64,000 nucleotides of DNA from Candidatus Ferrigenium bremense (GTDB lineage Bacteria > Pseudomonadota > Gammaproteobacteria > Burkholderiales > Gallionellaceae): the NCBI GenBank assembly GCA_019449635.1, contig JAGRPI010000011.1, positions 1 to 64,000 on the forward strand, in the 5' to 3' direction. This document shows positions 50,953-64,000 of this stretch, piece after piece. Under the pieces are notes generated by a model, which was given only the letters and a program-made list of their open reading frames with translations, was not told where the DNA came from and did not search any database. The position numbers and the translations under genes are program-made. Each line of letters starts with the position of its first letter. Position 1 is the first letter of the stretch.

Positions 50953-52452
50953 ATGGTTATGTTGACCGCTGATTCGCCGCTCGCCGCGCAGGCGCAATGG
51001 TTGTCGCGTTACCGTTACGGCCTGCGTTTGTCGGAGCAGGGCACGGTGGTTTCGGTCGGCGACGGCATTGCCTGGGTCAGCGGCTTGCCTTCGGCCCGCA
51101 TGGATGAAATCGTGCAACTCGATGACGGCAGCAGCGCACTGGTGTTCCACCTGGCGCGCAACCGGATCGGGGCGATCCTGCTGCGCCAGACCGAGCGGCT
51201 GACGGCCGGCACCCCGGCCTATCTGACCGGCCGGCGGCTGAGCATCGGCGTCGGCAACGGATTGCTGGGCAGGGTGATCGATCCGCTCGGCGCGCCGCTC
51301 GACGACGGCGGACAACTCGCGCCCGCGACACACCGTTCGCTCGACGTGCGCTCGCCACCCATCATCGCGCGCGATTTTGTGACGCAGCCGCTGTATACCG
51401 GCAACAAGATCGTCGATACCCTGATTCCCATCGGCAAGGGCCAGCGCCAGCTGATCATCGGAGACAACGGCAGCGGCAAGAGCGCGCTTGCGGTCGATGC
51501 CGTGATCAACCAGCGCGGCAAGAACGTCTATTGCGTGTACGTATTGATCGGGCAGAAACGTTCCGCCGTGGTGAACACGATAGCGATGCTGCGGCGCGCG
51601 AATGCGCTGGCCTATACCACGGTCGTGGCGGCGGAGGCGACCGCCATGCCCGGCCTAAAATATCTCGCGCCATTCGCCGGTTGCACCGTGGCCGAGGCGT
51701 GGATGGCCGAAGGGCGGGACACGCTGGTGGTGTACGACGATCTCACCACCCATGCGCGCAGCTACCGCGAGCTTTCGCTGCTGTTGCGCCGCCCGCCGGG
51801 GCGCGAGGCCTACCCCGGCGATATTTTTTACCTGCATGCGCGGCTGCTGGAACGCTCCACGCGCCTGTCGGCGAAGCAGGGCGGCGGCAGCATGACCGCG
51901 CTGCCGATCATCGAAACCGAGCAGGGCGAGATCGCATCCTACATCCCGACCAACCTGATCTCGATCACCGACGGGCAGGTTTATCTGGATCACGATCTGC
52001 TTGCGCGCGGTTTTCTTCCGGCGATCGATGTCACGCGCTCGGTGTCGCGCATCGGCGGCAATGCCCAGCACCCCAACATCAAGAAGGAAGCGGGGCGGAT
52101 GAAACTGGACTACCTGCAATTCCTCGAACTGGAGGTGTTCACCCGTTTCGGCTCGCGGCTGGAAGCCGGCATGGAAGCGCGCATCCGGCGCGGCCAGGTG
52201 CTGCGCGAAATGCTCAAGCAGGATCTGCTCACGCCCTTGCCGATCGAATTCCAGATGGCGTGGCTGGTGGCCTACAACGAGGGGCTGTTCGACAATCTCG
52301 AGCTGGGGCGGGTGAAACCGCGCATGGAACTGCTGCAACGGCAGGTGGAACGCGCCGGATTGAGCATAGACGAAGGGCGCGACCAGTGGAAAAGCCTGGT
52401 GCATGCGTGGCTGAGCGAAGAGGAGGCGCCCTCAGGTGAGCAAACGGCGTGA
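50953..52452 (+). CDS. atpA: N-type ATPase F1 alpha subunit
   Basis: A 499-residue non-catalytic nucleotide-binding alpha subunit. [13 protein letters not shown] is Walker A and [22 protein letters not shown] follows; the arginine finger lies in [13 protein letters not shown]. The start is the ATG at 50953 or 50959, and the only Shine-Dalgarno-like sequence (GGTGA) is part of the inserted repeat. Expression may therefore be weaker than in intact operons. It overlaps atpG by 17 bases. Confidence 0.94.
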
Positions 52453-53296
52453 GGTAAAGGAGCGTCTGGCCACACTGGACGAGATCGACGGCATCATGGT
52501 CGCGATGAAGAACCTGGCCCTGCTGGAAACGCGCAGGCTTGCGGCTTTTCTCGCCACGCAGCGCCGCGCGGTGGCCGGCATCGAAGCGGCTGCGCAGGAC
52601 TTCCTCAGCTTTTATCCTGAAATCGCGGCGCTTCCCGGCGGCGCGCGGCAACTGCTGCTGGTGGTCGGCTCCGAGCGCGGCCTGTGCGGCGACTTCAACG
52701 AAACGCTGCTCGCGCCGCTCGCTACGGCCATGCAGCAGGCGGACACGCTGCCGGTGGTGGTGGGGCGCAGGCTGGAAGCCAAGCTGCAAGGGAGTCAGCG
52801 CATCACCGCCTTCGTGGAAGGTCCCGGCGTGGCCGAGGAGGTGCCGGCGGCACTGGTGCGACTGGCCGGGGTGCTGGGCAAACTGCAGCAGCAGCGCCCG
52901 GAAGAGGCGTGGTGCATCGGCGCGCTGTACCACGACGAGGAAAGCGGCGCGCCGCGGCTGCGCCAGTTGCTGCCGCTGGAGTTGCCAAAAACAAGGCCGG
53001 CTTATTCCCATCCGCCGCTGCTCAACCTGGAACCGGCGCAGTTCCTCTCGCAGCTCACCAGCCAGTATCTTTACGCCGTGCTGCACGAGGTGTTCTACGC
53101 CTCGCTGATGGCGGAGAACCGCAAGCGGCTCGAGCACATGGACGGCGCCATCCGCCGCCTGGAGAAGGACGAGGCGAAACTGCGGCTGCGCTACAACGCG
53201 CTGCGCCAGGAGGAGATCATCGAGGAGATCGAGATCATCATGCTGAGCGCCGAGGCGCTGGCGGACCAGATGGCTGATTCTGACAGACACAGTTAA
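52436..53296 (+). CDS. atpG: N-type ATPase F1 gamma subunit
   Basis: A 286-residue rotor subunit. The N- and C-terminal helices ([20 protein letters not shown] and [23 protein letters not shown]-type) form the shaft, and the central [19 protein letters not shown] is the family core. It starts at GTG inside atpA. It ends the operon; a family C repeat begins at its stop codon. Confidence 0.92.
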
Positions 53297-53398: not shown

Positions 53399-54295
53399 TC
53401 AATGTGTGGTATGCACAGATAACAGGCATGGCTGATCGCCCGTCTCGACCTGGATGGTGGGATGCTCGATGTCGAACCTGTCGTGCAATGCGTTCACCAC
53501 GCGGCACAGGAAGTCATCGTCGGGCTGCCCGTCCGGCATGACGAGGTGGACGGTCAGCGCGGTTTCCGAGGTGCTCATCGCCCATATATGCAGGTCGTGG
53601 ATCGCGCTGACGCCGGGCAGGCTGGACAGGTAGTCCGCGATGTCGCCCAATTCGATCGAGGCCGGCACGCCATCCAGCGAAAGATGCAACGCGTGGCGCA
53701 ACAGATCCCAGGTGCCGATCAGGATCACCAGCGCGATCACCAGGCTGATCGCCGGGTCCAGCCAGGTCCAGCCGGTCCAGATGAATAGCGCGGCGGCGGC
53801 AACGACCCCGAGCGAGACCAGCGCGTCCGCCGCCATGTGCAGATAGGCGCCGCGCAGATTGAGATCGTCTTTGCTGCCGGACATGAACAGCCAGGCAGTG
53901 ACGCCATTGACGACCACGCCGATGGCAGCCACCACCATGACGGTGACGCCCTGGATCTGGACCGGATGGGAGAATCTGCTGATGGCTTCCCAGACGATGC
54001 CGCCTATCGCGACCAGCAAGATCAGCGCATTGAACGTTGCCGCCATGATGGTCACACGCCCCAGTCCGTAGGTGTGCTTCTGGCTGGGGCGCAACCGTGC
54101 CAGATAAAAGCCGCCCCAGGCTATCAGCAGACCCAGCACGTCGCTGAGATTGTGTCCGGCATCGGAGAGCAGCGCGAGCGAACCGGTCAGCCAGCCGTAA
54201 AAAGCCTCAACCAGCACGAACCCCACATTGAGCGTGACACCGACGGCAAAGGCGCGGTTATGGTTGTGGCTATGTGTGTGGCCGTGAGCGTCCAT
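53399..54295 (-). CDS. Cation diffusion facilitator (CzcD/ZitB-like)
   Basis: A 298-residue zinc/cobalt/cadmium-type exporter of the inner membrane. A His-rich N-terminus (HGHTHSHNHN) precedes six membrane helices. The metal site is in LLSDAGHNLSD (helix 2) and HMAADALVSLG (helix 5), an HxxxD pair. A cytosolic C-terminal dimerisation domain follows (about 215-295). The start at 54295 has AAGGAG at five bases. No metal regulator is adjacent. Confidence 0.93.
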   Translation of the reverse strand: MDAHGHTHSHNHNRAFAVGVTLNVGFVLVEAFYGWLTGSLALLSDAGHNLSDVLGLLIAWGGFYLARLRPSQKHTYGLGRVTIMAATFNALILLVAIGGIVWEAISRFSHPVQIQGVTVMVVAAIGVVVNGVTAWLFMSGSKDDLNLRGAYLHMAADALVSLGVVAAAALFIWTGWTWLDPAISLVIALVILIGTWDLLRHALHLSLDGVPASIELGDIADYLSSLPGVSAIHDLHIWAMSTSETALTVHLVMPDGQPDDDFLCRVVNALHDRFDIEHPTIQVETGDQPCLLSVHTTH

Positions 54296-54524
54296 GAAGT
54301 CTCCTTGCGGCAGATAAAATGCCAAATGGCGGGTTCATGCGCATCATCATATAAATAATCCATTTGCATGGAAACGTTTATTCGTGTTTATCGATAAATT
54401 TACCGGTTGTACGGCTGGCGGTTTATCGCCTGCCGGTGTTGTGCGATCGGAGTAGTGGAATGTTGACCGGTGACTGGCGGACCGAATGATGCGGCCGTTC
54501 TGGAAGCATCGGAATCAAAGGCCG

Positions 54525-54578: not shown

Positions 54579-55631
54579 CTATTTCGTCAGCGAAGAACCG
54601 GATGTATCACGGATTTGATTCTTCCATGCCTTGCGAATCAGGTTCTGCACATTTTCCGGCAGCGGCACGTAGTCCAGGTCGGAAGCTAGGCTGCCGCCGT
54701 TGGTGTAGGCCCAATCGAAGAATTTCAGGACTTCCTTCGCGGTATCCGGTTTTTCCTGCATCTTGTGCATCAGGATAAAGGTCGCGCCACTGATCGGCCA
54801 GCTTTCCTTGCCGGGTTCGTCGGTCAGGATTTCATAAAAGCCCGGCGCCTTGTCCCATTGTGCATTTGCTGCGGCTGCCTTGAAGGAGGCGTCGCCCGGT
54901 TTGACGAACTGGCCGTCACGGTTTTTCATCTGTATGGGATTCATCTTGTTTTGCAACGCATAGGCGTATTCCACATAGCCGATGGAACCCTTGATGCGCT
55001 GCACATAGGACGCCACCCCCTCGTTGCCCTTGCCGCCGGTGCCGGCCTTCCAGGAAACCGCCGTGCCTTCGCCGACGCCGGTCTTCCATTCCGGGCTGGC
55101 CTTGGACAGGTAGTTGGTGAAGATGAAGGTGGTACCGGAACCGTCCGAACGGTGCACGACAGTGATGTTCTCGTCGGGCAGTTTGAGGTCCTTGTTCAGC
55201 GCCGCGAGGGCGGGGTCGTTCCACTTGGTGATCTTGCCCAGATAGATGTTCGCCAGCGTCGTGCCGTCCAGTTTCAGCGTGCCGGTTTCAACGCCGGCCA
55301 CATTGATCACGGGAACCACACCACCGATGACAGTCGGGAACTGCATCAGGCCGTCCTTGTCCAGTTTTTCCGGGGTCAGAGGCATGTCGGATGCGCCGAA
55401 ATCCACGGTCTTGGCGGTGATCTGCTTGATGCCGCCGCCGGAGCCGATGGACTGGTAGTTCATACTTACACCGCTTTTTGTCTTGTAGGCTTCGGCCCAT
55501 TTGGAATAGATCGGATAGGGGAAGGTCGCGCCCGCACCGGTGATGTTGGTGGCCGCCTGGCTTGCGCCCGCACAGGACAGGGCAGCAGCGGTGGTGATGC
55601 CGAGGATGAGTTGCTTGAGTTTGCTGTTCAT
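54579..55631 (-). CDS. pstS: Phosphate ABC transporter binding protein
   Basis: A 350-residue periplasmic phosphate-binding protein. The signal peptide ends SQA-A near residue 27. Phosphate-contact motifs are GAGATFPYPIYSKW, SIGSGGGIKQI, DFGASDMPL and VVHRSDGSGTTFIFTNYL. GGAG lies five bases before the ATG. The transporter genes pstCAB are not in this window. It is downstream of the porin gene with 105 bases between and no obvious own promoter, so both are probably read from the Pho-type promoter before the porin. Confidence 0.95.
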   Translation of the reverse strand: MNSKLKQLILGITTAAALSCAGASQAATNITGAGATFPYPIYSKWAEAYKTKSGVSMNYQSIGSGGGIKQITAKTVDFGASDMPLTPEKLDKDGLMQFPTVIGGVVPVINVAGVETGTLKLDGTTLANIYLGKITKWNDPALAALNKDLKLPDENITVVHRSDGSGTTFIFTNYLSKASPEWKTGVGEGTAVSWKAGTGGKGNEGVASYVQRIKGSIGYVEYAYALQNKMNPIQMKNRDGQFVKPGDASFKAAAANAQWDKAPGFYEILTDEPGKESWPISGATFILMHKMQEKPDTAKEVLKFFDWAYTNGGSLASDLDYVPLPENVQNLIRKAWKNQIRDTSGSSLTK

Positions 55632-55736
55632 GGAGTCTCCGTTTCGATTTCATTGCTTAAAAACACTGGCCCGGATCAACAACGCCTTGCGGCAAGATCT
55701 ATGTTGACCCGGTCCTTCCGGGTCGGCCGGGCGGGA

Positions 55737-56894
55737 TCAGAAAGTGTGTCTAATGCCGAGGGAAACCACGGACGGGGAAGCTCCGATGCCGTTGACGGTG
55801 CTTGCTGCCGAGGTGGTTTGGCTGAAGCCGTAGTCGCTGCCACTCTTGTTGCTGATGCGCGAATAGATCGCATACAGCTTGGTGCGCTTGCTCAGGACAT
55901 GGTCGTAGCCCAGGCTGAACTGGTTGGCGCCGGTGTTGGCGGTCGAGGCCAGCTGGCCTGCCCTGCCATAGGCAAACTTGACGGCATTCATGCCCATCTT
56001 GTAATTGCCGGACAGGTAGTAGGCATTGTGGCCGAAGCGGTCGGCGCCGACCGCAGCACAGCCGCCGACTACCACGGCGGTACACAGGTTGTCGCTGGTT
56101 CTTTCATAAGCGAAACCCAAGGTAAGCGCATCCATCATCGTGTAGCCCAGCCCCAGTTTCCAGGCAGATTCCTTGCCGCCGATTCGAGTCGCATCGAGCT
56201 TGTGGTCTTCATAGCCCAGCGAACCATAGAACGGGGCGGCATCGTACGTGATGGCCAGACTGGTGAGACTTTCCTTGGCTTGCGCGGCCGTAGTGTTGGT
56301 CTCTCTCAGGTTGGCGTAGGCGATCATGCCGGTGAAGCCGCTCAATTTGGGCGTGGCGTAGTGGATGGTGTTGGTCGGGCGGCCGTCGAAGGCGGTGTTG
56401 GCGGAATCGACGGTGGTGGGGCTGGTTACGCCTCCCGTCAGTGCGCGGCTATCCGCGACGCTGTCGGCGAACGGGTCCAGCCTGCGCGTGGCCAGCTTGT
56501 AGGGGGTGTCGTGGCGGCCCAGCAGCACGGTGCCTGCGCTGTCGTGCTTCAGCCCGATGAAGGAATTGCGCGTGGCAAAGGTGCCGGTGCCGCCTGCTTC
56601 GTTAGTGCTGTCAATGTTGATTTGCTGCTCGATCTGCCAGATTACCGACAGGCCATCGTCCAATCCTTCCGCGCCCTTGAGGCCAATACGCGAGACGTTG
56701 CTCGATACGTTGGTCTTGCTTGCGCCAGCGACGCCGGCAGCAGAGGTGCCGTTGTTGATGAAGTCATACGACAAGTCGGCCATGCCGTAAAAGCTCACAT
56801 TGGCGGTCTCGGCCAATGCCGGCGCCGAAAAGGTTGCGGCTGCCAGTGCGGCGACGATGAGTTTCTTTTGCTTCGTGAATGCTTTTTGCATCAT
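55737..56894 (-). CDS. Outer-membrane porin upstream of pstS
   Basis: A 385-residue betaproteobacterial general-porin-type barrel. The signal peptide ends ALA-E near residue 29, NVSFYGMADLSYDF starts the barrel, and the C-terminus ends in Phe (GIRHTF), required for outer-membrane insertion. Position and a Pho-box-like promoter suggest it brings phosphate or phosphorylated compounds into the periplasm for PstS. By sequence alone it is not of the OprP class. GGGAG precedes the ATG. Confidence 0.9.
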   Translation of the reverse strand: MMQKAFTKQKKLIVAALAAATFSAPALAETANVSFYGMADLSYDFINNGTSAAGVAGASKTNVSSNVSRIGLKGAEGLDDGLSVIWQIEQQINIDSTNEAGGTGTFATRNSFIGLKHDSAGTVLLGRHDTPYKLATRRLDPFADSVADSRALTGGVTSPTTVDSANTAFDGRPTNTIHYATPKLSGFTGMIAYANLRETNTTAAQAKESLTSLAITYDAAPFYGSLGYEDHKLDATRIGGKESAWKLGLGYTMMDALTLGFAYERTSDNLCTAVVVGGCAAVGADRFGHNAYYLSGNYKMGMNAVKFAYGRAGQLASTANTGANQFSLGYDHVLSKRTKLYAIYSRISNKSGSDYGFSQTTSAASTVNGIGASPSVVSLGIRHTF

Positions 56895-56941
56895 TAAATC
56901 TCCCAGTAATTTTGAATAAGCCGCCCTAGTGCGACCCAGGC

Positions 56942-56986
56942 AGATTAGAGGGCGAATGTGAAAAACCGATTAAGGATTGATGAAAG
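56942..56986 (-). promoter_or_regulatory. Pho-box-like promoter of the porin-pstS unit
   Basis: On the minus strand CTTTCAT, CCTTAAT and TTTTCAC (compare consensus CTGTCAT) begin at exact 11-base steps (56986, 56975, 56964). Ten bases after the last, TAATCT (56942-56947) is a -10-like hexamer. This matches the PhoB-dependent promoter layout, in which the box replaces the -35. Confidence 0.6.
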
Positions 56987-57074
56987 TTTTGTTACGGGGG
57001 ATTATTCGATGAGGCGATTTGATTGCAGCGTGAGGGCGCGAAACAAAAGCAGCCTGAAATAACCGGCTCTGTAC

Positions 57075-57758
57075 TTACGCCGAAAAGCGGTAACCGCTGC
57101 CGCGCACGGTCTGGATCAAATGATCCCTGCCTGCCGCTTCCAGCGCTTTTCTAAGCCGGCGTATATGCACATCTACCGTACGCTCCTCGATAAAAGCATG
57201 CGTGCCCCACACTTGGCTGAGTAACTGAGAGCGGCTGTACACCCGTTCGGCATGGTTCATGAAAAAACACAACAATCGAAATTCGGTTGGCCCCAATTCA
57301 ATATTGATACCGTTTGCCCTAACCCGGTGCGATATGGGGGATAGTTCCAATCCGCCTATGGTTATGGACTCATCCGGCATCTGGGGGGCATGGCGGCGCA
57401 GCATGGCGCGTATCCGCGCCATAAGTTCGCGGGGCGAAAACGGTTTGGTAATGTAATCGTCCGCACCTGATTCGAGCCCCAATATTTTGTCGTGTTCTTC
57501 CCCGCGCGCTGTCAGCATGATGATGGGAATGTTGCTGGTCCTTGCTTCGCTGCGAAATTGCCTGGCAAGCAACGGGCCGCTGGTGTTAGGCAACATCCAA
57601 TCAAGCAGGATCAAATCCGGCAAGTCCTGCCTGATTTGCAGCCAGGCACTTTCCGCGTCTTCCGCGCGCAATGCGCGAAATCCAGCTTGGGTAACATTGA
57701 ATGCCAGCAGCTCCTGAATCGCCGGTTCATCTTCGACTATCAAAATTTTTGCGCTCAT
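57075..57758 (-). CDS. phoB: Phosphate-regulon response regulator
   Basis: A 227-residue OmpR/PhoB-type regulator. The receiver has the acidic pair in VEDE, phosphoacceptor Asp53 in LLDWMLPNTSG, and the conserved Lys in ITKPFSP. The C-terminal winged helix has LGPTEFRLLCFFM and RTVDVHIRRLRKALE, the PhoB recognition helix. GGAG is immediately before the ATG, so a TTG at 57764 may be the real start. The sensor PhoR is not adjacent. A Pho-box-like promoter suggests autoregulation. Confidence 0.93.
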   Translation of the reverse strand: MSAKILIVEDEPAIQELLAFNVTQAGFRALRAEDAESAWLQIRQDLPDLILLDWMLPNTSGPLLARQFRSEARTSNIPIIMLTARGEEHDKILGLESGADDYITKPFSPRELMARIRAMLRRHAPQMPDESITIGGLELSPISHRVRANGINIELGPTEFRLLCFFMNHAERVYSRSQLLSQVWGTHAFIEERTVDVHIRRLRKALEAAGRDHLIQTVRGSGYRFSA

Positions 57759-57791
57759 CTCCAACTTTCAATCACTGATTACGGAATGGCT

Positions 57792-57825
57792 AATATATGG
57801 GTAATTTGTGACAGAAAGATGAATC
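57792..57825 (-). promoter_or_regulatory. Pho-box-like promoter of phoB
   Basis: On the minus strand GATTCAT and CTGTCAC stand 11 bases apart (starting 57825 and 57814). Exactly ten bases after the second comes TATATT (57792-57797), a strong -10. Transcription would start near 57785. Confidence 0.68.
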
Positions 57826-57949
57826 CAGGGAAACATTTCGCATCGCGGCCGCTCATGCGCGACATTTGCAGCGGGTCAACGAGTGATTTGCATGGCGATT
57901 TATTTGCTCCGTTCTGGCCGGGAGATGGGTGGGGTAGGGTAGGGGCCGG

Positions 57950-58072
57950 TTAACCGAGTGTTTTTGCAATGATTACGCGCTCTATGCCATTGATCAGAGC
58001 GATCAGATTTTTGTGATCCGAATCGATAGCCGCAATTTCGACGATCAACTGTTTTGTCCATACCAATTCCAT
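57950..58072 (-). CDS. Truncated hemerythrin-like protein, 40 residues
   Basis: The frame MELVWTKQLIVEIAAIDSDH then KNLIALINGIERVIIAKTLG matches the first helix and first iron ligand (His20) of single-domain bacteriohemerythrins, then stops. The other ligands are absent, so it cannot bind a di-iron centre. AGGAG at six bases before the ATG suggests it is still translated. It lies 23 bases after an HDOD gene. Either a decayed gene or a short helical peptide. Confidence 0.55.
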   Translation of the reverse strand: MELVWTKQLIVEIAAIDSDHKNLIALINGIERVIIAKTLG

Positions 58073-58095
58073 TTTGCACTCCTGCAATCTAGCCG

Positions 58096-58941
58096 CTAAT
58101 CTGCGTTCAGCATGCTTGTTATGTCGCTGCGCAACTCGTCGAATTCCCGCCTGGAAAATTGCAGATGTTCCAGCACAAGCTGCTGCCACATTGCCCATTC
58201 GTCGTTACGCAAGTACAAATGCGAATCCACAATATATTCCGCTGCCTGAACAATGCTTATCCAATTGCACACTTCAATTGAAGCCTGGTCGGCAACTGAG
58301 GAAAAAACCGTGATGTCGTGATGGCGCAGGATTGCGCGGCATATGTTCAGTGGAAGCAACCAGTTGCGCGCCAGCAGATTGCCAACTACCGCATGGGTGG
58401 TCGAATAACGGAGGTTTTCGGCCACACAGATATTTCCGCTGATGCGCGACATCTCGTCGATATCCTTCAGGTAACCGGGATATTTCTGCATGAGCACCGG
58501 AGTGCCGCAATCGTGGAATAGCCCTACGGTATAAGCATCATCGCAAGATACGCCGGGAACCTGCGCAGCAATACGGGATGCGGCAAAAGCGGTCATGCTG
58601 GAGCGGCTCCAGAACTCATTCATGCCGGCCAGATTCGGCGCTACGTTGGCACGCAATGCGACATTACTGAGCAGATTGACCGTATTTCTGAGTCCCAGCA
58701 CAGTGATCGCCTGTTGAACGGAAGATACTTTGTTGCGCAGACCGAAATGCGGCGAATTGGCGAGTTTGAGCATCGGCGCGGATAAACCGACATCCTGCCC
58801 GATTAAACGCGCCATACGCACAGGGTCGGCATCGGCCGATCGCGCCTCTTTCATGGCCGCCAGCAATGCAGCCGGGCACGGCGGCAAATGGATTCCGCTT
58901 AATACCTGCCTGGCGGCATTTATGTCTAATTCGGCATGCAT
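58096..58941 (-). CDS. HDOD-domain protein
   Basis: A 281-residue HDOD protein. LPPCPAALLAAMKEARSADA, IGQDVGLSAPMLKLANS and TVGLFHDCGTPVLMQKY are family signatures. Catalytic HD residues are mostly replaced, so it is a probable signalling scaffold. It precedes the truncated hemerythrin, echoing the HDOD and hemerythrin-cyclase neighbours at 6.3-8.9 kb. It is divergent in sequence from the HDOD protein at 7990-8901. Confidence 0.87.
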   Translation of the reverse strand: MHAELDINAARQVLSGIHLPPCPAALLAAMKEARSADADPVRMARLIGQDVGLSAPMLKLANSPHFGLRNKVSSVQQAITVLGLRNTVNLLSNVALRANVAPNLAGMNEFWSRSSMTAFAASRIAAQVPGVSCDDAYTVGLFHDCGTPVLMQKYPGYLKDIDEMSRISGNICVAENLRYSTTHAVVGNLLARNWLLPLNICRAILRHHDITVFSSVADQASIEVCNWISIVQAAEYIVDSHLYLRNDEWAMWQQLVLEHLQFSRREFDELRSDITSMLNAD

Positions 58942-59110
58942 GTTTTTTGTCCTTGTTTATGGTCTGATAAAACGCTACCGGTATTCCCCCGGAGAGAATT
59001 GCCGCTAATTGGCAGAACGGCTAACCAGTGATCTAAAGCGGCATCATATTTTTCTGCTTCGCATTATGTTTTTCACTCTTGATGTTTATTGAACCGGTTA
59101 ACGGGCCGGA

Positions 59111-59884
59111 TTACCTCTTGAGAATATGTTCTGATATTTTGAGAAAATGTTTCGCATAGCGGCTGCTGAGGCGCGACATCGGCAGCAGTATCAACAGGTC
59201 GGCTGTATTGAATTCCGCATCCCATGCCGGTTCGCCGCAGATATAAGCCCCCAGCCGCAGGTAGCCTTTGATCAGCGGCGGGATCGGCGCATCGAGGTGC
59301 TGGTTCAGCGCGTGCAGAGGCAGCGGGTTGCGAGGGAAGACGCTGTATTCGACGGGGGCTGCATAGATGCGGTGCAGTTTGCGATAGATGCTGGCTGCGA
59401 CATGGCCGCCGTCCGCGATACCGATGCTGGCGCAACCAATCAGGTATTCGTGGCCGCTTTGCTGCATGTATTGCGCGAGGCCGCTCCACAACTGGGTGAT
59501 GGTCGCGCCGTCGCGGTAATCCCAGTGCACGCATGAGCGTCCCACTTCTACCATGCGCTCGCCGAGATGCAGTAATCGGGTCAGATCGAATTCGGTCTGG
59601 GCATAGTAGCCGCCGATTTTTTGCGCCTGATCGGGCGAAAGTATGCGGTAGGTGCCCACCACTTTGTTCTCGTTGCTTTCGCGCACCAATAAATGCTTGC
59701 AGTATTTGTCGAAAATATCGCGATCGATCCCCTCGTTTGCGCTGGGCAGGTTCGCCCCCATCTCTTCGGCGAACACCTTGTAGCGCAGGCGTTGCGCCTC
59801 CAGTATTTCCGCTTCGCTGTGCGCCAGGCTTGTGACCAGGCGGCGTTGGGCCGCGGGTTGGGTCTGTCGGTCGAGTTCCAGCAT
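59111..59884 (-). CDS. olsB: GNAT-type N-acyltransferase, OlsB-like
   Basis: A 257-residue hemolysin-like acyltransferase (COG3176). RLRYKVFAEEMGANLPSANEGIDRDIFDKYC and VGTYRILSPDQA are the OlsB/autoinducer-synthase-like GNAT core, and RMVEVGRSCVHWDYRDGATI the acyl-ACP-binding part. OlsB transfers a 3-hydroxyacyl group to ornithine, the first step of ornithine lipid synthesis; the acylating partner OlsA is not in the window. GGAGG precedes the ATG. The Pho-box-like site upstream and divergent phoU support a phosphate-stress role. Confidence 0.82.
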   Translation of the reverse strand: MLELDRQTQPAAQRRLVTSLAHSEAEILEAQRLRYKVFAEEMGANLPSANEGIDRDIFDKYCKHLLVRESNENKVVGTYRILSPDQAQKIGGYYAQTEFDLTRLLHLGERMVEVGRSCVHWDYRDGATITQLWSGLAQYMQQSGHEYLIGCASIGIADGGHVAASIYRKLHRIYAAPVEYSVFPRNPLPLHALNQHLDAPIPPLIKGYLRLGAYICGEPAWDAEFNTADLLILLPMSRLSSRYAKHFLKISEHILKR

Positions 59885-59940
59885 TGCATCCTCCGTTTGG
59901 TTGAAGATGCGCGCAGGTTATTGGATCCTTGTTGCCGCGC

Positions 59941-59969
59941 GATGACGGAAATATGAAGAGTTCGTGAAA
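59941..59969 (-). promoter_or_regulatory. Pho-box-like array before olsB
   Basis: On the minus strand ATTTCAC, TCTTCAT and CCGTCAT begin at exact 11-base steps. The best half-site, CCGTCAT, matches six of seven consensus positions. A weak -10 (AAGGAT) lies ten bases further on, 59925-59930. Confidence 0.6.
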
Positions 59970-60149
59970 TCGCTGCTTGGGCGGCTGGTCCGGAAACTGA
60001 GCGAGGAATAGCGCATAAGCAGATAGTGTCGAAAGTAGTGTTTGTGCTTCATGCGCCAACGGGAGAAAGTCCGTGCTGAGAGCGTTTCGATTCTTGCGCG
60101 CTTTTTGAATATTGTGGTTCTTGATCATCAGCCAGCATCCCGCGTTGAC

Positions 60150-60183
60150 TCGTAACGATCCCGTCATGATTGGTGAGTAGCAT
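60150..60183 (+). promoter_or_regulatory. Pho-box-like promoter of phoU
   Basis: TCGTAAC (60150) and CCGTCAT (60161) are 11 bases apart. Ten bases after the second, TAGCAT (60178-60183) is a four-of-six -10. The phoU ATG is 37 bases downstream. Confidence 0.5.
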
Positions 60184-60219
60184 GGAACGCTAAATCAATC
60201 TGTGCCGGGAGAGAATCGG

Positions 60220-60942
60220 ATGAGCAATAGGAAACATACATTGACGCAGTTTGATGCCGAACTCGATGAGGTGCGTGACCAGGTGATGCTGATGGGCCGC
60301 CTGGTGGAGAGCCAGATACGGCTGGCCATGGAAGCGCTGAAAAACAATGATGTCGCCCTGATGGAACGCGTCATTGAGGACGATCACCGTGTGAACGGCA
60401 TGGAGGTCTCCATCGACGAAAAGTGCGTCCAGATCATCGCTTGCCGCCAACCGGCAGCAAACGACCTGCGCATGGTGATGACGCTGATCAAGACCATCAC
60501 AGATATTGAACGCATCGGCGACGAGGCGAAAAAGATCGCGCGGATGGGAAAACTGCTGTCCAGCCGGGAACATTTCCATTCGCCGCGCTACACCGAAATT
60601 CGGCATGCCGCCAATCTGGTGCTCGACATGCTGCACCAATCACTGGACTCATTCGCCCGTCTGGACATATCCAACATCACGCACGTGATACGCCAGGACA
60701 AGTTGGTGGACAACCAGTTTCGCACCGCCCTGCGCTACCTCATCACATTGATGATGGAAGACCCCCGCACCATCTCCAGTGCGCTGGAGATGCTGTTCAT
60801 CGCCAAATCGGTCGAGCGCATGGGCGACCACGCACAGAATATGGCCGAATATATGGTCTACATGATCAAGGGGCGCAATGCGCGCCACATCAGCGTGGAA
60901 GAGATCGAGCGCGAAGTGCAGCAAGCGGGTTTGCAGATATAG
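60220..60942 (+). CDS. phoU: Phosphate signalling regulator PhoU
   Basis: A 240-residue all-helical protein of two PhoU repeats, each with the E/DxxxD metal motif (EDDHRVNGMEVSIDEKC and IGDEAKKIARM; then RMGDHAQNMAEYMVYM). It dampens PhoR-PhoB signalling and the Pst transporter when phosphate is plentiful. GGGAGAG precedes the ATG at 60220; a GTG at 60202 is less likely. It is separated from pstS and phoB by lipid and signalling genes. Confidence 0.95.
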   Translation: MSNRKHTLTQFDAELDEVRDQVMLMGRLVESQIRLAMEALKNNDVALMERVIEDDHRVNGMEVSIDEKCVQIIACRQPAANDLRMVMTLIKTITDIERIGDEAKKIARMGKLLSSREHFHSPRYTEIRHAANLVLDMLHQSLDSFARLDISNITHVIRQDKLVDNQFRTALRYLITLMMEDPRTISSALEMLFIAKSVERMGDHAQNMAEYMVYMIKGRNARHISVEEIEREVQQAGLQI

Positions 60943-61073
60943 CCATTCACAGGGAGTCGCGGCCTCGTTCAGCATGGAAATCGAGAAAGGTTCGGGTGTG
61001 CGACCTCGGGCAGATTTGTCCTGGGCGTGCAATTTAAGCAGGGGTTGTCGCGCAGCAATAAAGGATTATCAAA

Positions 61074-61178
61074 GTGAAAATTATCAAGAGGTATTTAAAG
61101 AAGCTGTTGCTCAAAGTACAGCGAAAATTTATGAAAAAGTATGTCAGAAAAAAAATCATTTGCGGCGGGGAGTGGTAA
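61074..61178 (+). CDS. Possible small basic peptide, 34 residues
   Basis: A GTG start with AAAGGA eight bases upstream opens a frame rich in Lys and Arg (KRYLKKLLLKVQRKFMKKYV). It would form a cationic amphipathic helix. Base composition is AT-rich compared with the flanks. There is no known family, so coding status is uncertain. The rest of the gap 60943-61289 shows nothing else. Confidence 0.25.
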   Translation: MKIIKRYLKKLLLKVQRKFMKKYVRKKIICGGEW

Positions 61179-61289
61179 GCCATCATGTCGATTGTTCCCG
61201 GCAGATCGGCCCACCACAAAACTGCAAGCAACCGTCCGGCCTTGTCGAAGTCCGATAGTGCGCCGCGAAATTCGTGTTTGATTTCGATA

Positions 61290-62444
61290 TCAGTGAAGCT
61301 CAATGACGGACTGGTAAAAATCCAGCATGCGTTCTGCCTGTTTGCCGGCCGACCATCCGTGTGCATACTCTCGCCCGGCTTCGCCAAGGCGCGTCCTGAC
61401 ACCGGCGTCTTCCAGCATCATGATGACCTTGCCGGAAAAATCTTCCAGTTCTTCTTTGGCAATCCGGACGCCGGCGCCTTCGCGCAGCACGTCGCGGGTG
61501 CCCATTTCGGCGGTAGACACTACCGGCACACCTTGCGCCATCGCTTCCAGCAGAACCAGCCCCTGAGTTTCAGTCCTTGATGAAAATACGAAAATATCTG
61601 CCGATTGATAGCAGCTATTGAGTTCGGTGTGGCGATCAAGGTAGCCGATAAACATGACATTCTCTGCCAGCCCAAGCTTGTCGGCTTCATGTTCCAGCCC
61701 TTTACGCGCCGGTCCCGCGCCTGCGATCAGCAGCAGCACTTCGGGAATATCCTTTCTGACACGGTCAACTACCCGCAGCAGGAACCCGATATTCTTTTCG
61801 TGCGCCACGCGCCCGACAAAAAGCAGCATTGGGCGACCCTGCGAAATGCCGTATTTCCTGCGGAAATCATCGCCATTACCCGGCACGAAACTTTCCGGTT
61901 CGAGTCCGGTCGGGATGACTTCCGCATGGGTCGTCACGCCATAGCCGCGTAACACCTCCATCATGGGGCGTGATGGAACTACCATGCCATCCAGGCTATT
62001 ACCTTGATGGCGGGAGAATCTCCTTGCCACTGACCCCATTATTGCTTTGGGTACGAACGGGATGTAGTGGTGAAGATATTCCTCGAAGAATGTGTGGTAG
62101 GTTTCTATGCAGGGAATATCCAGCAAACGGGATAGTTTGATGCCGAGGTAGTGCGCCACGAATGGCGTTTGAATGTGGATGACGTCGTAATGCTCGTTGC
62201 GCAGTTTTTCGAGGTGCGCCATCACCCAGTTGAATCTCATCAGCCGGTCTTCCGGGTCGAATGGCAGTTGGCGGGAAGGCACCCTCATGATGTCGCTTTC
62301 ATTAGAGCCGGGTCCTGGATAATCCGGCGCGATCAGGTGTACCGTATGGCCGAGTTCACGGAGTTCGTGCCGGAAGGTTTTGATGGAAGTCGAGACGCCG
62401 TTGATGCGCGGGAAATATACGTCGGATATGAACAGGATTCTCAT
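61290..62444 (-). CDS. GT4 glycosyltransferase, candidate diacylglycerol glycosyltransferase (Agt-like)
   Basis: A 384-residue GT-B glycosyltransferase. The N-terminal domain begins MRILFISDVYFPRINGVSTS, the type shared with glycolipid and PimA-like enzymes. The C-terminal donor domain has LLFVGRVAHEKNIGFLLRVV and the GT4 signature SRTETQGLVLLEAMAQGVPVV. The gene order plcP-dgkA-GT suggests diacylglycerol as acceptor, making glycolipids that replace phospholipids. This is inference from context, since GT4 acceptor specificity cannot be read from sequence. Confidence 0.8.
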   Translation of the reverse strand: MRILFISDVYFPRINGVSTSIKTFRHELRELGHTVHLIAPDYPGPGSNESDIMRVPSRQLPFDPEDRLMRFNWVMAHLEKLRNEHYDVIHIQTPFVAHYLGIKLSRLLDIPCIETYHTFFEEYLHHYIPFVPKAIMGSVARRFSRHQGNSLDGMVVPSRPMMEVLRGYGVTTHAEVIPTGLEPESFVPGNGDDFRRKYGISQGRPMLLFVGRVAHEKNIGFLLRVVDRVRKDIPEVLLLIAGAGPARKGLEHEADKLGLAENVMFIGYLDRHTELNSCYQSADIFVFSSRTETQGLVLLEAMAQGVPVVSTAEMGTRDVLREGAGVRIAKEELEDFSGKVIMMLEDAGVRTRLGEAGREYAHGWSAGKQAERMLDFYQSVIELH

Positions 62445-62480
62445 CTCGGGTGCCCGTAGTGTTGATGGATTGAAATCGTG

Positions 62481-62849
62481 TCAGCCGAGCAGAACCAGTA
62501 ACCAGACCAGTATCAGATCGACAATGGTGATGAGCACCGCAGCGCTGCCGATGTCCTTGGCGCGCTTGGCAAGCCTGTGGTCATCCAGCGAGATGCGGTC
62601 AACCGTGGCTTCTATGGCCGAATTCAGCAACTCGACGATGAGCAGCAGCAACACGCTGCCTATCATCAGGGCGCGCCCGACGGCTGTTGCATCAAGCCAG
62701 AACGCCAGCGGCAACAGAATAGCCGCCAACAACGTCTCCTGGCGGAAGGCATCCTCATTCCGGTACGCTTCTTTGATGCCGGAGCAGGAATAACGAAATG
62801 CATTCAATAAGCGTTTGAGGCCGGTCTTGCCTTTATGCGGGCTTTCCAT
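62481..62849 (-). CDS. dgkA: Diacylglycerol kinase
   Basis: A 122-residue DgkA with three membrane helices. The catalytic AFRQETLLAA and NSAIEATVDRIS (with the DDHRLAKRAKDIGSAAV segment) are the family signature. It phosphorylates diacylglycerol to phosphatidate, returning it to phospholipid synthesis. It begins six bases after plcP and ends 36 bases before the glycosyltransferase, so the three are one operon. It would compete with the glycosyltransferase for the PlcP product. Confidence 0.93.
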   Translation of the reverse strand: MESPHKGKTGLKRLLNAFRYSCSGIKEAYRNEDAFRQETLLAAILLPLAFWLDATAVGRALMIGSVLLLLIVELLNSAIEATVDRISLDDHRLAKRAKDIGSAAVLITIVDLILVWLLVLLG

Positions 62850-62855
62850 CACTTT

Positions 62856-63623
62856 TCACCAACGTGGTTGCATTGCCGGATTCTGGCTTGCATTCCATGT
62901 GACAAGCTCCATGCGCCCGTCGAAATGCTCGACAATCGCGGTGCAGCTATCCACCCAGTCGCCACAGTTCAAATACGAAAGTCCGTCGACCTCTTTTATC
63001 ATCGGCCAGTGGATGTGGCCGCAAATCGCCCCATCCAGCTTGCGTCCCCGCACATGATGGATGACCGAGTCTTCAAAGCTGAAGATGAAATTGATGGCGG
63101 TTTTTATCTTGCGCTTGGCATAACCGGCAAGCGACCAGTATCCGGGACGTCGGAAAGTCCTGCGCAGCCAGGATAGATATATATTCAGGCTCACCAGCAT
63201 GTTGTAAGACTTGTCGCCGAGTATGGCTACCCACTTGTGATGACGCGTTACCTGGTCGAATTCATCGCCATGCAATAACAGGTAGCGGCGCCCGTCAGCG
63301 GCGGTATGGATGATCTCGTGGGCAACTACCACATCACCAAACGATGTACCGACATATTCGCGTATGGCCTCATCATGGTTGCCTGGAATGAAGAAGATCC
63401 TGTCACCGTGCCGCGCGCACCGCAGCAGTTTTTGCACAACCGTATTCTGGGCCGGTGTCCAGTGAACTCCCCCCCTGCTCATCGCCCATAAGTCGATGAT
63501 GTCACCGAGCAGGAAAATGTTCTCGGCTGAGTATTCTTTCAGGAATTCAAGTAAACGGTTGGCTTGGCATGCCCTGGTTCCGAGATGGATGTCGGAAAGG
63601 AATATCGACCGGACTTGTGTCAT
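62856..63623 (-). CDS. plcP: PlcP-like metallophosphoesterase (phospholipase C type)
   Basis: A 255-residue calcineurin-like phosphoesterase of the COG2908 group that includes LpxH and PlcP. Metal motifs are FLSDIHLGT, LLGDIIDLW, IPGNHDE, LLHGDEFD and CGHIHWP. The segments HTAADGRRYLLLHGD and YLNCGDWVDSCTALVEH-like ending resemble the PlcP enzymes that hydrolyse phospholipids to diacylglycerol under phosphate limitation, more than LpxH. The operon with dgkA and a glycosyltransferase strengthens this. Assignment to LpxH-like UDP-diacylglucosamine hydrolase remains possible. Confidence 0.8.
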   Translation of the reverse strand: MTQVRSIFLSDIHLGTRACQANRLLEFLKEYSAENIFLLGDIIDLWAMSRGGVHWTPAQNTVVQKLLRCARHGDRIFFIPGNHDEAIREYVGTSFGDVVVAHEIIHTAADGRRYLLLHGDEFDQVTRHHKWVAILGDKSYNMLVSLNIYLSWLRRTFRRPGYWSLAGYAKRKIKTAINFIFSFEDSVIHHVRGRKLDGAICGHIHWPMIKEVDGLSYLNCGDWVDSCTAIVEHFDGRMELVTWNASQNPAMQPRW

Positions 63624-64000
63624 CTCGGGGATACCACAATGATGGTTCGAGAAGCATCATTCAGGATGCATGCGCTTATTGCGAGGCAATCCGGCTGCCT
63701 GTAGGGCACGCCGCCTATATGCCGCATCGTTGTTTGGAACCGGAATGGAAAGTAACCTTTTGATTCATGCTGTCAGCATGACAGCAAAATATTTAATAAT
63801 TATTAACTTTTTGTTTTGGAATTATGAATTTTGAAGCGGCGCGGCGCGGGCATGGGAGGAGACGATCGGTTGCTGGGCGCATTCCTGTCATATGCATTCT
63901 GACAACGACCATTTTCCGGCGAAACCATCAATGAAGGCGACACTTGAGGAAGCTTTTCTTCCGTCGGCTGGATGCTATATAAAACATATAGGTTCCAGAA
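63624..64000. other. Upstream region of the plcP operon
   Basis: About 375 bases without a recognisable gene. A Pho-type half-site lies at 63767-63784, followed rightwards by an AT-rich block (about 63785-63830). A plus-strand frame near 63569 overlaps plcP and is a shadow. Confidence 0.5.
63767..63784 (-). promoter_or_regulatory. Weak Pho-box candidate before plcP
   Basis: On the minus strand a perfect CTGTCAT half-site (63778-63784) is followed at 11 bases by ACAGCAT. The same bases form the palindrome CTGTCAGCATGACAG, so another regulator is equally possible. The -10 is poor (GTTACT at 63751-63756). Confidence 0.35.

Follow-up and report, generated by a model that had tools for sequence, protein, structure and literature searches.

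A gene island on contig JAGRPI010000011.1 of Candidatus Ferrigenium bremense, a Gallionella species, very probably serves to lower the phosphorus content of the membrane under phosphate starvation. We analysed the first 64,000 nucleotides of this contig (G000:C30:1-64000, hereafter the window; the genome comprises 2.4 Mb on 42 contigs), where porin-pstS, phoB, olsB, phoU, plcP, dgkA and a GT4 glycosyltransferase gene lie together. At low phosphate, PhoB, encoded with PhoR elsewhere in the genome and possibly also in the island, would activate porin-pstS, phoB and olsB through PHO boxes recognised as sequence matches. PlcP, by its orthology to characterised PlcP, would cleave phospholipids into diacylglycerol and a phospho-alcohol, and GT4, judging from its operon, family profile and conserved pairing, would add a sugar to diacylglycerol to give a phosphorus-free glycolipid. 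DgkA might return surplus diacylglycerol to phosphatidic acid as an overflow or return path, and OlsB together with OlsA would, by homology, make ornithine lipid. The plcP-dgkA-GT4 module appears to have entered an olsA-olsB junction, where a fossil 3' end of olsA is present in the sequence. Open reading frames and profile searches placed every gene named in a preliminary description of the window where it had been reported, with intact frames (Table 1); the genes are real and lie together as claimed there, with two amendments: several are second copies, and olsA lies outside the described span.

Sequence comparisons assign the phosphoesterase to PlcP and not to LpxH, as the preliminary description had proposed. 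As references we used the S. meliloti locus SMc00171, which we take to be PlcP, and P. aeruginosa plasmid genes that are presumably copies of PA3219-PA3218. With the window protein, S. meliloti PlcP shares 49.6% identity, P. aeruginosa PlcP 47.9% and E. coli LpxH 20%; the two reference PlcPs share 46.6%, a pair printed as 46% (PMC8528852). A tree of 81 rows split 10 LpxH from 71 PlcP with support of 100/100 and placed both reference PlcPs on the side of the window protein; the long branches for which it gave a warning (S. meliloti with R. mucosa, and E. coli LpxH with another LpxH) concern joins within each group. When four PlcP were aligned with two LpxH, the window protein shared the motifs GNHDE, HGDxF, CGHIH and GDWVxSCTA with the other PlcPs; it has the metal-site motifs together with the PlcP-specific GNHDE, CGHIH and GDWVxSCTA. 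The genome also holds a separate LpxH gene, 38.7% identical to E. coli LpxH. Among the matches listed from the named collection, the nearest PlcP relatives come from Gallionella metagenome-assembled genomes (MAGs; 98%, 90% and 88% identity). A search of the PDB by sequence with PlcP matched only LpxH.

It is very improbable that the phosphoesterase, DgkA and GT4 serve lipid A or surface polysaccharide synthesis instead of the response to phosphate starvation. Database records do label such proteins UDP-2,3-diacylglucosamine diphosphatase, LpxH is the best NCBIfam profile for the window PlcP, albeit below its cut-off, and an LpxH gene precedes plcP in ten relative loci. However, S. meliloti and P. 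aeruginosa PlcP give equally low LpxH profile scores, the two families split cleanly in the tree, the genome has its own LpxH, and GT4 finds its two best profiles among lipid glycosyltransferases. For the phosphoesterase itself, the trees and the separate LpxH gene lead us to reject the LpxH or lipid A reading. In the ten loci, all from Gallionella relatives (L039, L040, L041, L044-L048, L050 and L051), LpxH lies on the same strand as plcP, 36-172 nt upstream in eight and 5.9 kb upstream in L040 and L046; GT4 follows plcP in eight of them, and both phosphoesterase families stand side by side.

On the minus strand, plcP and dgkA are separated by 3 nt and dgkA and GT4 by 36 nt, so we expect plcP, dgkA and GT4 to form one transcription unit. 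The preliminary description had treated GT4 as the counterpart of Agt, which our data contradict. P. aeruginosa Agt1 shares 29.3% identity with GT4, compared with 53% for the R. mucosa protein. Three clades emerged from a tree of 46 rows, namely window-type GT4 (21 rows, 100/100), Agt (12 rows, 99/97) and GTB as the third (13 rows, 100/99), and all persisted when outgroups were included (39 rows; 99/96, 99/99 and 96/91). The window GT4 has the motif TETQG, the two Agt checked have TDTYG and TDTFG, and the one GTB checked has TETYG; in the TDTxG motif described for Agt, Asp replaces the Glu of GT4 enzymes (PMC8231724). The low identity, the separate clades and TETQG in place of TDTxG rule out Agt orthology, and by sequence the window GT4 belongs to a clade of its own. 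Its best NCBIfam profile is alpha-monoglucosyldiacylglycerol synthase (NF049988), at 156.2 bits against a cut-off of 400. With GT4 as the query, the PDB sequence search returned diverse GT4 and related enzymes only. For a role in capsule or lipopolysaccharide synthesis, a tree with five E. coli lipopolysaccharide and colanic-acid enzymes was uninformative (branches of 6.5-7.7, rows scattered); two of the five stood beside the window clade with weak support (87/74) and three elsewhere, and we counted them neither way.

The pairing of this clade with PlcP is recurrent. We compared gene neighbourhoods in named loci (the best 80 of at least 478 by PlcP similarity to the window, 79 counted) and in relative loci (53 of 55 counted), dropping from both sets those without a full-length PlcP frame; the named set is no census given how it was picked, and contig ends cut some neighbourhoods, which makes the counts lower bounds. 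Within 3 kb of PlcP, a window-type GT4 was found in 63/79 named and 23/53 relative loci, and Agt in 0/79 and 13/53, respectively. The order plcP, dgkA, GT4, consecutive on one strand, occurs in 15 of the 79 and 6 of the 53. Over all loci checked, Agt partners PlcPs that are 44-65% identical to that of the window (15 loci), whereas the window-type GT4 partners PlcPs of at least 66% identity in 86 of 87 loci (some genomes are counted twice), the exception being the gammaproteobacterium Thiodictyon, with a PlcP of 52%. In broad terms, the type of glycosyltransferase therefore tracks the PlcP lineage: in many Nitrosomonadales and Rhodocyclales PlcP is found with the GT4 clade, and Agt accompanies more distant PlcPs. 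Since at least two glycosyltransferase clades partner PlcP in Betaproteobacteria, surveys of plcP-agt pairs alone miss part of the picture, and the GT4 clade offers a concrete, easily expressed enzyme. The GTB clade is often found near plcP, dgkA or olsB (L054, L062, L176, L182, L190, L202, L226, L228 and others); its members are about 45-65% identical to their reference and 35-40% to P. aeruginosa Agt1.

The OlsB-type gene of the preliminary description is supported by full-length homology to S. meliloti OlsB (38.8% identity over 250 columns) and by an OlsA partner on the same contig, at G000:C30:66094-67002, 2.1 kb past the window end. Profile searches gave ornithine-lipid families as the best match for both proteins. 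OlsB scored below both NCBIfam equivalog cut-offs (183.7 against 350 and 182.9 against 320 bits), in models that, judged by their names, seem to be built around alphaproteobacterial members, and the OlsA-like protein reached 137 bits against a cut-off of 300 for lyso-ornithine lipid O-acyltransferase. The PDB sequence search with OlsB gave a weak acyl-homoserine lactone synthase match and two chance-level matches only. From these homologies we infer that OlsB and OlsA make ornithine lipid.

Possible Pho control was assessed with an ad hoc score, counting matches to CTGTCATNNNNCTGTCAT, a consensus printed in PMC8528852, plus small bonuses. Only four of 127,966 window positions score 11 or more; three of them precede phoB, olsB and the porin gene in the right orientation, and the fourth lies inside the porin gene. 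The best score before phoU is 9.5. No PHO box was found in the window before pstS itself (best score 7.75), so we assume that pstS is transcribed with the porin gene, which is probably the case. A score as high as that of the plcP site is reached at about 0.00016 of positions, or about 0.05 times per 300-nt promoter, by chance. Parts of an element around this site, CTGYCATGCTG...GCATGAA, are common to close relatives, and this partly conserved block may point to a function. Scores of 11 or more upstream were also frequent in relatives, compared with the numbers expected from shuffles: 42/121 for plcP (2.9 expected), 19/29 for pstS (1.2), 18/54 for olsB (1.6), 5/16 for phoU (0.4), 3/6 for the porin (0.0), 3/9 for phoB (0.2), 12/78 for GT4 (2.0), 13/51 for GTB (1.2) and 7/56 for DgkA (1.1). 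Enrichment was slight for olsA (2/30 against 0.3). Upstream regions were defined from the longest open frame, of which the first 90 nt were included, and some of the best sites therefore fall inside the assumed start; the counts include the contig of the window where applicable, with only identical promoter stretches removed. Altogether, Pho control of the window plcP is weakly indicated by its sequence.

The genes of the two lipid pathways are closer together than expected. We searched 121 genomes with each protein; these relatives are not independent, and some genomes have both a numbered and a named locus. From 98 PlcP and 88 OlsB matches we dropped LpxH-like proteins (at most 35% identity) and fragments, keeping 53 genomes with a PlcP match of at least 44% identity and 83 with a full-length OlsB match. 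In 14 of the 44 genomes having both, the window genome included, plcP and olsB lie within 15 kb of each other, which is more than the chance expectation of about 0.5 by our estimate (30 kb over about 2.9 Mb, times 44). Among 73 genomes of the same genus, several of them incomplete, 30 have PlcP, 52 OlsB, 26 both and 17 neither. One could suppose that this is merely a loose neighbourhood of Pho genes, in which Pho control in this species reaches no further than the ornithine-lipid half, and plcP-dgkA-GT4, with a promoter of its own or a constitutive one, takes part in normal lipid turnover. The strong PHO boxes before olsB, phoB and the porin gene but not before plcP, the separation of olsA from plcP by a pyruvate kinase gene in this genome and the widely varying arrangements among species would fit such a neighbourhood. 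We consider it unlikely, given the enrichment of PHO boxes before plcP in relatives, a duplicate olsB promoter region just before plcP in the genome G049 and the closeness of plcP and olsB across genomes.

The phosphate regulators and the phosphate-binding protein encoded in the island are paralogues, with further copies elsewhere in the genome. Another phoB on contig C8, 82.7% identical to that of the island, is followed by PhoR (TIGR02966, 430 bits, over the cut-off), and the island phoB, to which no phoR is joined, passes the TIGR02154 cut-off but not NF007546. Other copies of pstS (contig C14, 85% identical, beside two pst permease matches, one over and one under the cut-off), phoU (contig C42, 61% identical) and dgkA (contig C16) lie elsewhere. 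The preliminary description had placed the lipid genes next to the Pho regulators; the paralogues do adjoin them, while phoBR and the pst transporter genes are found on other contigs.

The sequence between olsA and olsB bears on how the island arose. Many of the same-genus loci fetched, distant members included, have olsA and olsB contiguous, often with a GGDEF/EAL gene before them and porin-pstS, phoB-porin-pstS or dgkA after them. In the window genome, G044 and G049, the plcP-dgkA-GT4 block stands between the two. Over 205 nt, the DNA before the window olsB aligns at 76.6% identity with a junction where olsA and olsB are uninterrupted, and it takes in the terminal part of olsA; the fossil scores 47.3 bits against the genome's own olsA (maximum 24.7 in 60 shuffles), which lies intact about 6 kb away. 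Because a 3' fossil of olsA precedes olsB and the intact olsA lies beyond the plcP operon, insertion into an olsA-olsB junction is the best explanation, and the module probably entered this junction and duplicated it. In G049, the olsB promoter region and the 5' end of olsB occur twice, before plcP and before olsB. The same genome has a PsiE-family gene (phosphate-starvation-inducible; PF06146, 62.9 bits; L035 8657-9151) between olsA and plcP.

The reverse direction, with olsA-plcP-dgkA-GT4-olsB as the older operon and contiguous olsA-olsB produced by excision, seems rather doubtful to us. A Nitrosomonadales MAG (L153) carries exactly this order on one strand, with OlsA 49% and OlsB 67% identical to those of the window, and the flanking repeats in G049 would permit clean excision. 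Yet an olsA 3' fossil beside olsB, despite an intact olsA, needs an earlier contiguous olsA-olsB, and this contiguous arrangement is common among the same-genus loci fetched, even in distant members. A junction fossil was also sought in L153, where nothing significant was found. Beyond insertion in this genome, we tentatively put forward a broader scheme, on which we lean slightly to the side of doubt. Nitrosomonadales and Rhodocyclales might have a lipid-remodelling lineage of their own, in which PlcP is paired with the separate GT4 clade, often together with DgkA and GTB, in place of Agt. In Gallionella the plcP-dgkA-GT4 module might move in and out of the olsA-olsB junction through recombination of duplicated junction repeats, gaining the olsB PHO-box promoter as in G049. 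If so, such remodelling would enable iron oxidisers to grow next to iron oxides that bind phosphate.

Several points weigh against a phosphorus-saving island. The PHO site before plcP is weak here, as it is in the majority of the close relatives inspected, and it may be due to chance. DgkA within the unit costs ATP and returns phosphate to lipid, which fits saving poorly unless it clears surplus only. OlsB, OlsA and GT4 all fall below their NCBIfam cut-offs, no characterised close relative of GT4 was found in our analysis, and its acceptor could be another lipid. The 17 of 73 same-genus genomes without PlcP and OlsB at the cut used, some of them incomplete, also count against it.

Table 1. Genes of the island and PHO-box-like sites, in window coordinates.
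Feature	Position	Strand	Evidence or remark
pstS, second copy	54579-55631	-	NF008171, 459 bits, over cut-off
Porin	55737-56894	-	PF13609, 171 bits
Two overlapping PHO-box-like sites	56969-56997	-	85 and 74 bp before porin; scores 11.0, 10.75
phoB, second copy, without phoR beside it	57075-57764	-	TIGR02154, 347 bits, over cut-off
PHO-box-like site	57808-57825	-	43 bp before phoB; score 11.25, best in window
HDOD-domain gene, between phoB and olsB	58096-58941		Absent from the list of the preliminary description
olsB-like ornithine N-acyltransferase	59111-59884	-	NCBIfam OlsB, 183.7 bits, below cut-off of 350
PHO-box-like site	59942-59959	-	57 bp before olsB; score 11.0
Fossil of olsA 3' end, directly upstream of olsB	59960-60044	-	72% over 87 nt to intact olsA
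phoU, second copy	60202-60942	+	TIGR02135, 220.6 bits, over cut-off
GT4 glycosyltransferase	61290-62444	-	Predicted diacylglycerol glycosyltransferase, non-Agt clade
dgkA, prokaryotic diacylglycerol kinase, directly after plcP	62481-62852	-	PF01219, 119 bits
plcP, PlcP-type phospholipase C, calcineurin-like metallophosphoesterase	62856-63623	-	Identity, tree, motifs
Weak PHO-box-like site before plcP	63767-63784	-	Score 10.25

Past the window end, the same contig carries a pyruvate kinase gene, pyk (NF011314, 771 bits, over the cut-off), between olsA and plcP, as well as a gene for a GGDEF/EAL protein. A long-form pyruvate kinase gene repeatedly adjoins plcP in other loci (L031 4137-6020, by NF011314; L033, L034, L056-L058 and L221, as BLAST homologues). 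A cation diffusion facilitator family gene adjoins the island (53399-54325), and genes for F1-type ATPase alpha and gamma subunits lie at 50953-53296; the alpha subunit passes the ordinary alpha model and scores high, though below the cut-off, with the model for an alternate F1F0 ATPase, so that these genes possibly belong to a second, alternate-type ATPase.

Ferric oxyhydroxides made by iron oxidisers bind phosphate strongly (PMC10734482), and phosphorus-free membranes could therefore matter to the life of these organisms. For Gallionellaceae, the same source describes phosphate uptake and polyphosphate storage, and no word that begins with "lipid" occurs in its main text. Among the papers listed from the open-licence PMC literature, none dealt with lipid remodelling in Gallionella or with an operon of plcP, dgkA and a glycosyltransferase; the one that contains all three words, PMC13086504, names dgkA only among KEGG entries. 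The chemistry is of a known kind, and neither the gene order seen here nor the GT4 clade or the occurrence in Gallionella came up among those papers. The suggestion of a possibly undescribed betaproteobacterial version may thus hold for the arrangement and the GT4 clade and not for the pathway, which is already published. The view that such steps are known mainly from alphaproteobacteria no longer holds, as the gammaproteobacterial and methanotroph cases show (PMC8528852, PMC5082522, PMC9239053). PlcP remodelling was published for Alphaproteobacteria, with plcP reported also in Gammaproteobacteria, Flavobacteria and others and adjoining glycosyltransferases of more than one kind (PMC4796936), for P. 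aeruginosa (PMC8528852) and for a methanotroph (PMC9239053).

One of the closest known systems is PlcP-Agt of P. aeruginosa (PA3219-PA3218, PA0842; PMC8528852), which shares plcP followed by a GT4-family gene, a predicted diacylglycerol intermediate and Pho control, the last weakly indicated for the window plcP; in the window, the glycosyltransferase is not Agt, dgkA lies between, and the neighbours include ols genes and Pho paralogues. The same four activities as predicted here, those of PlcP, DagK, OlsA and OlsB, are found in P. putida BIRD-1, where all four proteins rise under phosphate depletion, and PlcP and OlsAB are absent from a phoBR mutant; there the locus tags of plcP and olsAB are far apart (1390 and 0974-0975), whereas only a few kilobases separate the genes here (PMC5082522). 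The genes of Agrobacterium tumefaciens are scattered (atu1649, atu2297, atu0344, atu0355; PMC3972451), and its glycosyltransferase, Agt, differs from that of the window. A betaproteobacterial plcP is already in print for Methylotenera, with transcripts from Lake Washington sediment, and the text consulted in PMC9239053 describes no adjoining ols genes or Pho paralogues. The alpha-monoglucosyldiacylglycerol synthase of NF049988 is a lipid glycosyltransferase and gives the best profile for the window GT4, which scores far below its cut-off. S. meliloti (PMC3972451, PMC4796936), finally, shares an orthologous PlcP and a homologous OlsB with the window, alongside its own OlsA.

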